64,000 nt of DNA from Bacteroidota bacterium (lineage in GTDB: Bacteria > Bacteroidota > Bacteroidia > Chitinophagales > BACL12). The position numbers and the translations under genes were made by a program. Below are positions 60,486 to 64,000 of this stretch, in pieces. Every line of letters begins with the position of its first letter. Position 1 is the stretch's first letter. The notes beneath the pieces were generated by a model. That model was given only the letters and a program-made list of their open reading frames with translations, was not told the DNA's origin and did no database searches. The stretch lies in assembly GCA_029571985.1 (NCBI GenBank), contig JAKQVC010000132.1, forward strand, positions 124,001-188,000. The letters run 5' to 3'.

Positions 60486-60622
60486 GGCCCGTTCAGAAGG
60501 AGGTTAGGGAACAAAATAAACGTTCTCAGAACAGGGGTTCCCCGCCTGCTCGACGCAGGAGGGCAGGGATTCCCGGAGTACACCTCCGAAATAAAAACGT
60601 TCTTACACTGCGCAAAAAATAT
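60486..60622 (+). repeat. degenerate tRNA-Glu 5' copy A (137-bp unit)
   Basis: It starts GGCCCGTTC like the intact tRNA, then diverges in the D-arm and anticodon region, and regains identity at GAACAGGGGTTC. A 27-bp palindromic insertion follows at the T-loop, then GATTCCC and a 55-base spacer with a GGAG/CTCC hairpin that leads into the next copy. The 3' acceptor strand is absent, so no tRNA can be made from it. Confidence 0.8.
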
Positions 60623-60759
60623 GGCCCGTTCGTCTAGGGGTTAGGACACGAGATTTTCATTCTCGGAACAGGGGTTCCCCGCCTGCTCGACGCAGGAGGG
60701 CAGGGATTCCCGGAGTACAGCTCCGAAATAAAAATGTTCTTACACTGCGCAAAAAATTT
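60623..60759 (+). pseudogene. tRNA-Glu 5' copy B, interrupted in the T-loop (137-bp unit)
   Basis: Identical to the functional tRNA-Glu from its first base to GGGGTTC of the T-arm (60623-60677), including a TTC anticodon. The T-loop is then interrupted by the same 27-bp palindrome as in copy A. After GATTCCC the sequence switches to the 55-base spacer instead of the acceptor 3' strand. Copies A, B and the intact tRNA start exactly 137 bp apart. Confidence 0.85.
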
Positions 60760-60831
60760 GGCCCGTTCGTCTAGGGGTTAGGACACGAGATTTTCATTCT
60801 CGGAACAGGGGTTCGATTCCCCTACGGGCTA
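60760..60831 (+). tRNA. tRNA-Glu (UUC)
   Basis: A complete 72-nt cloverleaf. The acceptor stem is GGCCCGT/ACGGGCT (first pair G-U), the D-arm follows TC with GGGGTTAGGAC, the anticodon stem is CGAGA/TCTCG with loop TTTTCAT giving anticodon TTC, and the T-stem is AGGGG/CCCCT with an uninterrupted TTCGATT loop. The discriminator is A; no CCA is encoded (AC-TC follows). It is the only uninterrupted copy at this locus and the only tRNA gene found in the window. Confidence 0.95.
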
Positions 60832-60840
60832 CTCGAACAA

Positions 60841-60880
60841 AAAAGACCGACCAGCAGATCGCTGGTCGGTCTTTTTTTTA
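60841..60880 (+). terminator. terminator after tRNA-Glu (unit 1)
   Basis: An 11-bp perfect stem GACCGACCAGC/GCTGGTCGGTC with loop AGATC, flanked by an A-run and nine Ts. The same stem recurs at 61222 and, slightly changed, at 61594. Confidence 0.85.
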
Positions 60881-60896
60881 CCCTTAATTCAACAAC

Positions 60897-61133
60897 ATGA
60901 AAACGTACGTTTACGCCCTTAAAAACAAAATCAACAATGAAATTTATGTAGGTATTGCCTTAGATCCACAAATAAGATTACTGGAACACAATCGTGGAAA
61001 AAACAGATACACAAAAGCATTTATGCCATGGCAAATTTTCTACACTGAAGAATGCAATGGTTGGGCAGAAGCTAGAAAAAGAGAAATTTATTTGAAATCT
61101 GGCGCCGGAAAAAGGTTTCTTAAAAACTTGTGA
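60897..61133 (+). CDS. mini GIY-YIG nuclease, copy 1
   Basis: A 78-residue single-domain protein of the GIY-YIG nuclease superfamily. The signature is TYVYALKN...EIYVG at residues 3-19 (YVY/YVG as the GIY/YIG pair). The conserved Arg lies in LDPQIRLLEHNRG with the following His-Asn, then KNRYTKAFMPWQIFY, and the catalytic Glu region is ARKREIYLKSGAGKRFLKNL. Small GIY-YIG proteins of this kind are abundant in Bacteroidota and often sit beside tRNA genes. It lies 16 bases after a terminator, and a tRNA-Glu 3' fragment starts two bases after its stop. Copy 2 differs at three residues. Role as a homing nuclease is inferred. Confidence 0.9.
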   Translation: MKTYVYALKNKINNEIYVGIALDPQIRLLEHNRGKNRYTKAFMPWQIFYTEECNGWAEARKREIYLKSGAGKRFLKNL

Positions 61134-61134
61134 T

Positions 61135-61204
61135 ATTTTCATTCTCGGAACAGGGGTTCCCCGCCTGCTCGACGCAGGAGGGCAGGGATTCCCCTTCGGG
61201 CTAC
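61135..61204 (+). pseudogene. tRNA-Glu 3' fragment D with T-loop insertion
   Basis: Identity to the tRNA begins inside the anticodon loop (ATTTTCATTCTCGGAACAGG), continues to GGGGTTC, is interrupted by the 27-bp palindrome, and resumes as GATTCCCCTTCGGGCTAC, which is the T-stem and acceptor 3' strand with one change. The 5' half is missing. It starts two bases after the stop codon of the GIY-YIG gene. Confidence 0.88.
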
Positions 61205-61221
61205 TCAAAAAAAATCAAAAA

Positions 61222-61256
61222 GACCGACCAGCGATCTGCTGGTCGGTCTTTTTTTT
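61222..61256 (+). terminator. terminator of unit 1/2 (GACCGACCAGC stem)
   Basis: The same 11-bp stem as after the tRNA, but the five-base loop reads GATCT, the reverse complement of AGATC at 60856. Eight Ts follow. Confidence 0.85.
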
Positions 61257-61273
61257 ACCCTTAATTCAACAAC

Positions 61274-61510
61274 ATGAAAACATACGTTTACGCCCTTAAA
61301 AACAACATCAACTATGAAATTTATGTAGGTATTGCCTTAGATCCACAAATAAGATTACTGGAACATAATCGTGGAAAAAACAGATACACAAAAGCATTTA
61401 TGCCATGGCAAATTTTCTACTCTGAAGAATGCAATGGTTGGGCAGAAGCTAGAAAAAGAGAAATTTATTTGAAATCTGGCGCCGGAAAAAGGTTTCTTAA
61501 AAACTTGTAA
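61274..61510 (+). CDS. mini GIY-YIG nuclease, copy 2
   Basis: A second 78-residue GIY-YIG protein, differing from copy 1 by Lys11Asn, Asn14Tyr and Thr50Ser only. All signature residues are kept, so it should be equally active. The start lies 377 bp after that of copy 1 and the leader (CCCTTAATTCAACAAC before the ATG) is identical. Both copies are intact, which argues for recent duplication or selection. Preceded by a terminator and followed at once by a second tRNA-Glu 3' fragment. Confidence 0.9.
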   Translation: MKTYVYALKNNINYEIYVGIALDPQIRLLEHNRGKNRYTKAFMPWQIFYSEECNGWAEARKREIYLKSGAGKRFLKNL

Positions 61511-61511
61511 T

Positions 61512-61582
61512 ATTTTCATTCTCGGAACAGGGGTTCCCCGCCTGCTCGACGCAGGAGGGCAGGGATTCCCCTACGGGCAACT
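61512..61582 (+). pseudogene. tRNA-Glu 3' fragment E with T-loop insertion
   Basis: Same as fragment D: begins in the anticodon loop, carries the identical 27-bp palindrome in the T-loop, and ends GATTCCCCTACGGGCAAC (one acceptor change, CT to CA). The 5' half is missing. Confidence 0.88.
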
Positions 61583-61593
61583 CGAACAAAAAA

Positions 61594-61645
61594 GGCCGAC
61601 CAGCGATCTACTGGTCGGCCTTTTTGTTCCCTTAAATCAACATCA
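61594..61645 (+). repeat. terminator and truncated third unit leader
   Basis: A third hairpin (GGCCGACCAG/CTGGTCGGCC, T-run at 61621) is followed by CCCTTAAATCAACATCAT, which matches the leader of the two GIY-YIG genes (CCCTTAATTCAACAACAT). The match stops where the ATG would be; the next bases are the end of the neighbouring minus-strand gene. Confidence 0.75.
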
Positions 61646-63169
61646 TTATTCAATATAAACTACAAACGTAATTCTTACATCTTCAGGATTGTCAGAAGGC
61701 CAAGTCGGACAATCCCATTTAATCTCAAGGTAATCTCCCTGTGAGACAGGCTGACTTAATCCTGTTGCACTTATTAAACTTGTAGAACTAGTATTTGTAA
61801 TAGTACCAAGGTTTACAAAAATGCTGGAATTAATTTTTAAATATATTGTCGACACATCAGTTTCTGTACTTGGGTTTCCGGTATTGAAATACACATAAGC
61901 TACTCTTACTATTCCTGATTTAGGAATGTATACTTTATTTAAATCAGGTGTTGTTCCGGATATTTGCGGAATAGCACCAACATAATAATTTTCATTATCA
62001 GCGGGATCAATATCATTGGAAACACCTTGTAACGTTATTCCTAAAGATAGATTTGAAGTTTTAGTTTTGTCAATTGTACCCGCAGATGCATCATAAATGG
62101 CAACGTAATCTGAATTTCTATCAACACTGGTTTCTTCTGCGAGGCCGTTAATATCCATGGAGAGCACATCAGAACTTAGTGACAATCCAGAACCTAAGGT
62201 TCCTGAGATTAAATTTTTACCGGAATTAAAAACAGCAATTCTGGAAGCAGTTTGTTTATTGAAAGTAACCTGTCCCGCATCCAGTGTGAGCACATCATCA
62301 ATAGAAGTTCCTGCACTATTATAAACGCCAAAATGCAATCCTCCTTTACTTGGGTTAGCAGTGCGAACAAAGCTAATGTATCCCCCAATGGTGCTTTTAG
62401 TATTATCAACTCCAAACCCTATAGAAGCTGATTCGCCATTGATATCAGAATGATTCTGAACTGTGCTTTGATAATTTATCCAACTTGTATTTCCATCCGA
62501 ATAATCCTGAGCTCCAACAACTTTAAACTGTGGGTTATCGGAATCGTTTGCATTGTCGCCAACAATAAAATGATTCTTAATAAACGAAACCTCGTTAGAC
62601 CTTAACTTTATAGTAGTTTCATCTTCACCATTAATTAAACTCCAATTGATATGACTATCCTGAAAGTCGATCAAAAGCGCAATGGGGTCAGGGCCCTCAA
62701 CAACCAGTCTCCGATGCACATAATATTGACCTGTTGTGGAGGGAGCAACCAGGTCAAACAAATAAGAAGGTGATGCATTATTTAAGCCAATTCGATTATT
62801 AGAAGCATCGTAAACAAAACCACTTGGACCCAAAGTAAACGTGTTGCCGGAAGTTCCGGAAATTGATAAGCTAGTAGAAAACTCCTTTGCACCTGAAAAT
62901 GTTTGAATAGTTGTATTAACGACTCCACTTGTGCTTATATTTGCTTCAGGAACATCAGAAATAATACTCCAATCTATACCAGTTAGCCAAACCGGCTCGA
63001 AGTAGGATCCTGTAGACACCAAATTACCTACAGACCATGTTCTGTTTGCAGATAAATCATAAGTAGTTCCATTTATCGTAAGTGTGCGAGTGTCCGGAAC
63101 AAATTGAGCATTAATTGTGGTCGAATAAAAATTAATACAAAATAATATCAAAATATAGGTTAGTTTCAT
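61646..63169 (-). CDS. secreted tail-fibre-like protein
   Basis: About 507 residues starting at MKLTYILILFCINFYSTTINAQ, a signal peptide. The opening TLTINGTTYDLSANRTWSVG is the motif seen at the start of many Bacteroidota phage-tail-fibre-like and hypothetical secreted proteins. The middle is rich in Ser, Thr, Asn and Gly with beta-strand repeats (SGNTFTLGPSGFVYDASNNRIGLNNASP) and the C-terminus forms a beta-sandwich-like domain (KVYIPKSGIVRVAYVYFN, STIYLKINSSIFVNLGTI). There is no T9SS sorting domain. The gene is AT-rich. Function unknown; a surface adhesin or tail-like fibre are possibilities. Confidence 0.75.
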   Translation of the reverse strand: MKLTYILILFCINFYSTTINAQFVPDTRTLTINGTTYDLSANRTWSVGNLVSTGSYFEPVWLTGIDWSIISDVPEANISTSGVVNTTIQTFSGAKEFSTSLSISGTSGNTFTLGPSGFVYDASNNRIGLNNASPSYLFDLVAPSTTGQYYVHRRLVVEGPDPIALLIDFQDSHINWSLINGEDETTIKLRSNEVSFIKNHFIVGDNANDSDNPQFKVVGAQDYSDGNTSWINYQSTVQNHSDINGESASIGFGVDNTKSTIGGYISFVRTANPSKGGLHFGVYNSAGTSIDDVLTLDAGQVTFNKQTASRIAVFNSGKNLISGTLGSGLSLSSDVLSMDINGLAEETSVDRNSDYVAIYDASAGTIDKTKTSNLSLGITLQGVSNDIDPADNENYYVGAIPQISGTTPDLNKVYIPKSGIVRVAYVYFNTGNPSTETDVSTIYLKINSSIFVNLGTITNTSSTSLISATGLSQPVSQGDYLEIKWDCPTWPSDNPEDVRITFVVYIE

Positions 63170-63201
63170 AACTGCGGATTTAGATAAAATCAAAGTAGTA
63201 A

Positions 63202-64000
63202 TTAATTACTTAGGATAGTAATTCTTTTATAATATATGAACCCTGCTAATTCAATTGAGACAACACCTAATCCAGAAAAACTATCCGGCAGGGATATGGA
63301 TAAAGTATTTCCAAAACCTACCTCTTTTGCTATAATATTTCCATATATATCATAAAAAGAAACGAATGTTTCACCTACAATATCGAAGCCGATTTTAATT
63401 TCGAAAATGCCATAATTGGGATTAGGATAAATAGCAATTTGGCTCTGATAATTGGTATTTATTGTTACAAAACCTTCGTCAATAGTCATATTGCAATTAT
63501 CATCAAAACCATTTTCTACTTCAATAGCACCGGGGTATATTTCAGGATTTAAATCATTACAATCAGTTGAATCAAAAACATACCCATCCATCTCATCCAA
63601 ACAAGTGACTGTATCAAAATTCCCATCGCCAAAATTGTCATTGTCTAAATCTAGAAAAAAGGTTTGAAAAGTTAACCCGTCATCAATCATTCCGTTACAA
63701 TTGTCATCTAAGGCATTACAAATTTCATTAGAGGATGGGTTAATAAAATAAGCAGAGTCATTACAATCTAAAGAATTAGTAACAAATCCATCAGGTGTAA
63801 CAATCTCACATAGTAATTCAGAATTGAGAACATCTCCGTACGAATCTCCATCTGCATCTGTATAAACTGTCAAAAACTCATATACCAATTCATTTGTATC
63901 GTTGCAATCGGTGCTATCTGTAACAAACCCGAAAGGTGGCAATTCCAAGCAACTCATTGTCGAAAAAATTGCATTCCCATAGCCGTCAAGGTCAACATCT
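63202..64000 (-). CDS. MopE-repeat protein with T9SS sorting domain (N-terminus outside window)
   Basis: The frame is open to the right edge, so only the last ~265 residues are seen. They consist of MopE-type putative metal-binding repeats (DVDLDGYGN, YTDADGDSYGD, FLDLDNDNFGDG; DSTDCNDTNE, NSLDCNDSAYFIN, DSTDCNDLNPEIYPG; DDNCNGMIDDG, DDNCNMTIDEG), then a type A sorting domain (IAIYPNPNYGIFEI to YKRITILSN). The repeats are closely related to those of the protein at 19818. Probably a large secreted, calcium-binding surface protein; upstream domains are unknown. AT-rich like the other MopE gene. Confidence 0.85.
   Translation of the reverse strand, partial: DVDLDGYGNAIFSTMSCLELPPFGFVTDSTDCNDTNELVYEFLTVYTDADGDSYGDVLNSELLCEIVTPDGFVTNSLDCNDSAYFINPSSNEICNALDDNCNGMIDDGLTFQTFFLDLDNDNFGDGNFDTVTCLDEMDGYVFDSTDCNDLNPEIYPGAIEVENGFDDNCNMTIDEGFVTINTNYQSQIAIYPNPNYGIFEIKIGFDIVGETFVSFYDIYGNIIAKEVGFGNTLSISLPDSFSGLGVVSIELAGFIYYKRITILSN

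Follow-up and report, generated by a model that had tools for sequence, protein, structure and literature searches.

Organisation of the tRNA-Glu array

The window analysed here, a stretch of 64,000 nucleotides from the genome of a Bacteroidota bacterium, carries a tRNA-Glu(TTC) gene on its forward strand (60760-60832), the sole intact copy found in the genome. On its 3' side the gene is followed by two units of 377 bp, each composed of a terminator-like hairpin, a short leader, a gene of the GIY-YIG nuclease family and a 3' fragment of tRNA-Glu; over their 300-bp repeat the units are 96% identical. The two ORFs (60897-61133 and 61274-61510) encode proteins of 78 amino acids, which differ at three residues and match PF01541 (E=1.8e-14 and 4.2e-13, respectively), and the tRNA fragments start in the anticodon arm, right after the stop codons, at 61135 and 61512. 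The original prediction, made from the letters of the window, had described the intact tRNA, two repeat units and two 78-codon GIY-YIG genes with three amino-acid differences, and all of this, coordinates included, was confirmed. It had also placed tRNA-Glu 3' fragments behind the stop codons, which is correct as to their position; however, they are not plain 3' ends, since each is interrupted by a hairpin at TTC|GA. The supposed third unit, cut off at its start codon (61626-61645), consists of the last terminator and a leader remnant.

Two more broken copies of tRNA-Glu, in the form of 137-bp units (60486-60759), lie upstream of the intact gene. All four broken copies are split in the T-loop, exactly at TTC|GA, by an identical 27-bp hairpin, CCCGCCTGCTCGACGCAGGAGGGCAGG. 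The parts of the array are as follows (hairpins, terminators and leader remnant recognised by their sequence, nuclease genes by PF01541):

60486-60622 (+): 137-bp unit 1, degenerate tRNA-Glu copy by the native promoter, 73% identical to tRNA positions 1-55, T-loop hairpin-split, no 3' end
60541-60567 (+): 27-bp hairpin at TTC|GA, copy 1
60623-60759 (+): 137-bp unit 2, tRNA-Glu positions 1-55 (100% identical), hairpin, no acceptor 3' strand, then spacer to the intact tRNA
60678-60704 (+): 27-bp hairpin at TTC|GA, copy 2
60760-60832 (+): intact tRNA-Glu(TTC)
60845-60879 (+): terminator-like hairpin and T-run, copy 1
60897-61133 (+): GIY-YIG nuclease gene 1, 78 aa, catalytic domain only
61135-61204 (+): tRNA-Glu 3' fragment 1, anticodon arm to 3' end, hairpin-split
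61160-61186 (+): 27-bp hairpin at TTC|GA, copy 3
61222-61256 (+): terminator-like hairpin and T-run, copy 2; hairpin exactly reverse-complementary to the one in copy 1
61274-61510 (+): GIY-YIG nuclease gene 2, 78 aa
61512-61581 (+): tRNA-Glu 3' fragment 2, hairpin-split
61537-61563 (+): 27-bp hairpin at TTC|GA, copy 4
61594-61625 (+): terminator-like hairpin and T-run, copy 3
61626-61647 (+): leader-like remnant, not followed by an ORF; the array ends here

The terminator hairpins of the neighbouring units (60845-60871 and 61222-61248) look as if one had been flipped, and the third terminator has a different hairpin. A decayed third nuclease ORF, containing one TGA, is located about 4.3 kb after the array and about 1.9 kb past the end of the window (C50:189900-190133), and is accompanied by a truncated tRNA-Glu fragment without a hairpin. 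Two genes lie on the minus strand beyond the array (61646-63957); the second contains metal-binding motifs resembling those of MopE and weakly matches a sorting domain of type IX secretion.

The unit holds a single gene, that of PF01541: neither a tyrosine or serine integrase (unit ORF list and Pfam) nor a Y1 (HUH) transposase is present in it, the tRNA-Glu gene is uninterrupted, and an Rfam scan shows no intron family. A group I intron, a tyrosine integrase and a Y1 transposase were thus rejected as the agent, as the unit lacks any such gene or RNA. An assembly artefact is ruled out by the same anatomy in single-contig genomes such as G519.

The arrangement extends to other tRNA genes of the same genome. 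A search with a variable-gap pattern, GGTTC-hairpin-GGGAWYCC, gave 14 sites, whereas its reversed control gave 0, a difference far beyond chance. These sites belong to tRNA-Glu (4), Ser-GGA (2), Ser-TGA (1), Phe (4), Pro (1) and Arg (2), and in this genome the hairpin form is found at tRNA fragments only. Six tRNA loci are split at the same T-loop site, and the nuclease gene is present at the Glu locus only; the remaining five are ORF-less arrays, in which the 3' ends of the respective tRNAs are hairpin-split at TTC|GA (L021, Ser(TGA); L022, Ser(GGA); L023, Pro(TGG); L025, Phe(GAA); L331, Arg(CCG)). A single T-loop-specific activity acting on several tRNAs would explain the ORF-less arrays; alternatively, they might have lost the ORF from once complete units. 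Since this strict pattern was matched in just 4 of 98 further genomes of the class, the lineage of the window is unusually rich in the GGTTC-hairpin form.

A family of small nucleases at tRNA genes

The protein has the GIY-YIG domain with the catalytic Y, Y, R, H and E residues that define the superfamily, and no region past the catalytic domain; members of the family are 75-80 residues long. Across 27 homologues Y17, G19, R27, H31, E63 and K67 are invariant and Y6 is conserved in at least 90%. By sequence, the nearest solved structures are those of UPF0213 proteins and SLX1 (PDB 1ywl, 1zg2, 7cq2 and 4xlg; E down to 3e-14).

Differences between tandem copies of the gene are mostly synonymous (synonymous:nonsynonymous, e.g. 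40:16, 12:2 and 8:2), while about 80% nonsynonymous and 20% synonymous changes would be expected without selection. The ratio is 3:3 for the two copies in the window, and 6:3 in the comparison with the decayed third copy. This does not hold for some loci with few changes (3:4, 2:2) or for the array of G247, whose ten near-identical copies show 18 nonsynonymous and 0 synonymous differences over all pairs. This array (L126, G247:C9:905046-911389) comprises ten 457-bp units behind tRNA-Met and is probably the product of a very recent amplification. The counts point to purifying selection on most of the ORFs.

A profile of the 27 homologues matched 264 of 396 genomes of the class. We inspected 139 loci and counted the 124 flanked on each side by 500 bp or more: at 109 of these a tRNA gene lies on the same strand no more than 400 bp away, a figure that describes this nuclease subfamily and not all small GIY-YIG proteins, as the sample was seeded by a tRNA-linked protein and ranked by score. 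No antisense tRNA was seen near the nuclease loci, and control loci of Y1 transposases from the same class had a tRNA in 0 of 30 cases. For 104 of 123 tRNA-adjacent ORFs a further copy of the same tRNA, usually hairpin-split, lies across the ORF. Two checks proposed in the original prediction, whether homologues adjoin tRNA genes and whether these come with matching fragments of the same tRNA, thus came out as a tRNA-targeting cassette predicts.

Two mirror-image architectures were observed: an intact tRNA followed by the ORF and a broken 3' end, or a broken 5' end followed by the ORF and an intact tRNA, the stop codon of the ORF sometimes lying inside the tRNA in the latter. The isotypes include Arg, Met, Leu, Ala, Ser, Asp, Phe, Asn, Lys, Val, Gln, Glu and Pro, the host families number 40, and tandem arrays of 2-10 units are common. 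Among named loci, 35 of 38 in Bacteroidota and 23 of 30 in other phyla (summed over the table) are tRNA-adjacent, the latter set including Patescibacteria groups, Omnitrophota, Chlorobiota, Verrucomicrobiota, Acidobacteriota and Elusimicrobiota; in the scan of genome contigs the window protein gave no confirmed relative, while the consensus protein did.

A minority of close relatives is located away from tRNAs. At four loci (L104, L112, L118 and L140) a related GIY-YIG ORF lies, not at a tRNA, but between the arms of a different palindrome (e.g. CCCGTAGGAT...ATCCAACGGG). At L106, tmRNA was considered as the target and rejected, its Rfam score being far under the gathering threshold. Homologues are often found near contig ends (G001:C129:91-315, G041:C82, G054:C225, G019:C158), as expected if the repeats break short-read assemblies, so that copy numbers in draft genomes are probably underestimates.

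Split sites, empty sites and dispersed hairpins

The broken tRNA copies are split by a GC-rich hairpin, or have an arm replaced by it, in the T-loop, the D-loop or the anticodon arm. In 112 fragment-bearing cases these sites account for 24, 30 and 25, respectively; 13 others fall outside the ranges of these sites and 20 have no net insert, most of the 20 being, by eye, replacements of the anticodon arm. T-loop splits lie mostly at exactly TTC|RA. The anticodon loop, near which the original prediction had placed the cleavage, is not where the tRNA is split in the lineage of the window, which uses the T-loop (TTC|GA); the D-loop and the anticodon arm are used in other lineages.

The site is inherited together with the nuclease. 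With labels partly assigned by hand, the site class changes 19 times on the nuclease tree, against a mean of 42.5 after shuffling (0/300 shuffles as low), and 7 times against 12.6 (0/300) within the Arg and Leu loci alone. Isotype changes 37 times, against 79.0 when shuffled. The tree, built from 80 columns, is weakly resolved, which works against detecting either signal. When each nuclease is compared with its nearest relative from a different host family, the isotype agrees for 67 of 120 (16.7 expected from shuffling) and the site for 46 of 67 (22.0 expected). Identical 20-bp hairpins occur in tRNA-Arg D-loops of Bacteroidota, Chlorobiota and Omnitrophota.

The side of the duplication depends on the site: the 3' end is duplicated in 24 of 26 T-loop splits and the 5' end in 22 of 27 D-loop splits (Fisher p = 4e-8). 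Such geometry is expected if the element must rebuild the shorter tRNA end beyond a cut made at the split site.

Empty sites, proposed as a check by the original prediction, were found in close relatives of two carriers. In G001, a genome of the same genus, the locus shows the same GAPDH gene and promoter and a tRNA-Glu identical at 73/73 positions, and there is no array and no nuclease at that place. G519, which represents another genus, has five units behind tRNA-Met, while in seven congeners the locus consists of the bare tRNA and its terminator; in three of them (L309, L310 and L313) the tRNA-Met is identical to that of G519. It follows that the cassette has been gained or lost at a conserved tRNA, with the intact tRNA left unaltered.

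These observations bear on two explanations in which the nuclease is not a mobilising agent. In the first, tRNA 3' ends and terminators would be copied by slippage or unequal exchange, and the small nuclease gene would hitch-hike at recombination-prone tRNA loci. The frequency of tandem arrays and the existence of ORF-less ones fit this explanation; nevertheless, it does not account for the same gene family at many isotypes in 40 host families, for split sites that track the nuclease tree, for nearest foreign relatives that share both target and site, for empty sites in close relatives or for purifying selection on most ORFs. Passive duplication is already largely disfavoured, and we consider it highly improbable. 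In the second, the nuclease would be a resident tRNA-linked effector with a host function (in RNA cleavage, as a toxin or in phage defence), while the broken tRNAs would serve as decoys or regulatory RNAs. The gene lies close behind the tRNA terminator, so that read-through from the tRNA promoter may drive its expression, and tRNA-Glu is single-copy. On the other hand, presence is patchy within a genus, copy number is variable and the protein belongs to a DNA nuclease family, and a host role appears the most improbable of the explanations weighed here.

A third explanation arises from hairpins found elsewhere. A hairpin of the same family (CCTGCCTGCCGGCAGGCAGG; CCTGYCTGNCGRCAGGCAGG) is dispersed in 28 of 149 genomes (loci L200-L226), a single genome having as many as 45 copies and the reversed control giving 0; some of the copies lie inside broken tRNAs, and the hairpin recurs in broken tRNAs of different phyla. 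The palindrome itself might thus be the mobile unit, and the GIY-YIG enzyme might recognise hairpins or cruciforms, perhaps in single-stranded DNA at forks, and insert or excise them; tRNA loops would be favoured since tRNA genes fold, and the system would correspond to REP sequences and their Y1 transposases, with a GIY-YIG protein as the enzyme. Such transposition would suit the TTC enrichment in the flanks of dispersed hairpins (8/56 versus 2.2%, p=3e-5), which recalls the T-loop context, the location of the splits in cloverleaf loops, the presence of the branched-DNA nuclease SLX1 among the solved relatives and the sister set of ORFs between the arms of another palindrome. The nuclease is present in 25 of 28 hairpin genomes and in 74 of 121 others (Fisher 0.004), an association which is weak at the genome level and uncorrected for phylogeny. 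However, only 1 of 27 dispersed-hairpin loci is near a nuclease gene and most copies are also away from tRNAs, whereas the nuclease gene itself adjoins tRNAs; moreover, the pairing of T-loop splits with 3' ends and of D-loop splits with 5' ends is better matched by repair via tRNA homology. Transposition of the hairpin is therefore, in our opinion, rather unlikely.

Known systems and a candidate mechanism

Several known systems share individual features with the cassette. Tyrosine-integrase integrative elements insert at tRNA 3' ends, restoring the tRNA end and leaving a partial copy, and are in this respect similar; unlike them, the cassette is without an integrase, its unit is about 0.4 kb, the partial copy is hairpin-split and 5' versions exist. 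The rtT repeats of the E. coli tyrT operon are tandem repeats holding tRNA 3' ends behind an intact tRNA, as in the array, but they have no nuclease gene or loop hairpin, and no Rfam match to rtT was obtained in the array. REP sequences are short dispersed palindromes linked to RAYT (Y1, HUH) transposases, and thus likewise tied to a small enzyme gene; the enzyme here is a GIY-YIG protein instead of an HUH Y1 one, and both the gene and the split copies are at tRNA genes. UPF0213 proteins, with SLX1 the closest in solved structure, also consist of a single catalytic domain, and we know of no described linkage of them to tRNA. SLX1 acts in a complex on branched DNA. Fungal double-hairpin elements are GC-rich hairpins inserted at many sites, and to our knowledge no nuclease is linked to these or to the hairpin elements of sponge mitochondria. 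The latter, described as repetitive and hairpin-forming in PMC2800124, are again GC-rich hairpins at many sites, but both groups, fungal and sponge, are organellar.

The nearest analogue, and a precedent for the cutting of tRNA genes proposed here, is SegB, a free-standing GIY-YIG homing endonuclease of T-even phages, which cuts inside tRNA genes with a preference for RAWTSGAAC and drives tandem amplification; association with tRNAs is enriched across phages (PMC13096335). The reverse complement of its motif, GTTCSAWTY, appears to be T-loop sequence, as supported by tRNA-Thr and tRNA-Gly of T4. Both systems have a GIY-YIG gene beside tRNA genes and tandem amplification, and the T-loop class of split sites described here coincides with the SegB motif, while other lineages are split in other loops. 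SegB differs in being a phage protein of 221 aa with a C-terminal region that is absent from the cassette protein. No hairpin-split partial tRNA is described for it, and it amplifies intact tRNA, whereas the present arrays amplify the gene and a broken tRNA end. Instead of full-length similarity including the C-terminal region, as shared by members of the SegB family, comparison with the window nuclease gave a 17-residue local match, and 5.7 bits with the family profile.

Based on these observations, we suggest, at a probability of about two in three, that the array is a homing-like mobile cassette which restores its tRNA and belongs to a widespread minimal family invading tRNA genes. The cassette combines a gene for a GIY-YIG protein of 75-80 residues with a GC-rich hairpin and a second, incomplete copy of its target tRNA. 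The nuclease is predicted to break tRNA genes that are still unoccupied, in each lineage at a single place (TTC|GA of the T-loop in the window, the D-loop or anticodon arm in others), and repair of the break from an occupied copy would insert the cassette, leaving a complete tRNA on one side. The duplicated shorter end on the other side would remain hairpin-split at the cut position, so that the target is lost there and the hairpin protects the copy. Tandem arrays could result from repeated events of this kind or from unequal exchange, and the derivatives without an ORF that a genome carries at further tRNAs may have been moved in trans, or may have lost their gene.

The comparative checks fit the tRNA-targeting cassette put forward in the original prediction, but its plain homing picture is not sufficient, as it explains neither the survival of the intact carrier tRNA nor the role of the hairpin. 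Occupied and empty alleles exist at the same site in close relatives (tRNA-Glu with respect to G001, tRNA-Met with respect to the congeners of G519), as in homing. However, classical homing removes the target, and here the split affects the second copy only: in both cases the carrier still has an intact tRNA that equals the empty-site one, therefore we do not class the element with the classical homing cassettes. The main objection is that, given this identity, a nuclease recognising the tRNA alone should also cut its own locus. Sparing of the carrier tRNA could be due to low expression behind the terminator, to recognition of the flanks or to recognition of folded DNA, and the tandem arrays could be a trace of self-cutting. 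The hairpins at non-tRNA places in 28 of 149 genomes also count against homing, which does not predict them. So do the minority of close relatives away from tRNAs and the make-up of the protein, a bare catalytic domain that lacks the additional region of SegB.

A bolder interpretation, which we put forward only tentatively, is that a bare GIY-YIG domain and a mobile hairpin together recognise loops in tRNA genes, perhaps by their folded form and not by linear sequence, and form a cross-phylum class of mobile element that propagates tRNA-restoring cassettes as well as ORF-less satellites in trans, being neither a homing endonuclease, an integrase nor an HUH transposon. For the present we file the element as a nuclease-driven, target-restoring cassette, outside both the SegB family and the classical homing cassettes.

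The cassette is real, widespread and undescribed in the open literature searched. The search, which combined GIY-YIG with tRNA, palindromes, pseudo-tRNA, Bacteroidetes, Patescibacteria and the hairpin sequence, covered open papers, subscription journals being outside its scope, and returned no description, in line with the earlier statement that no described system was known to have such a layout. With close relatives in 264 of 396 genomes, mostly in tRNA genes where examined, the cassettes may be one of the most common kinds of small selfish element in Bacteroidota, and they would show a route by which an essential single-copy gene can be parasitised without harm to it. The lineage-specific split sites in the T-loop, D-loop and anticodon arm map out where nucleases of about 78 residues are predicted to cut, and false or broken tRNA annotations arise from the arrays themselves.
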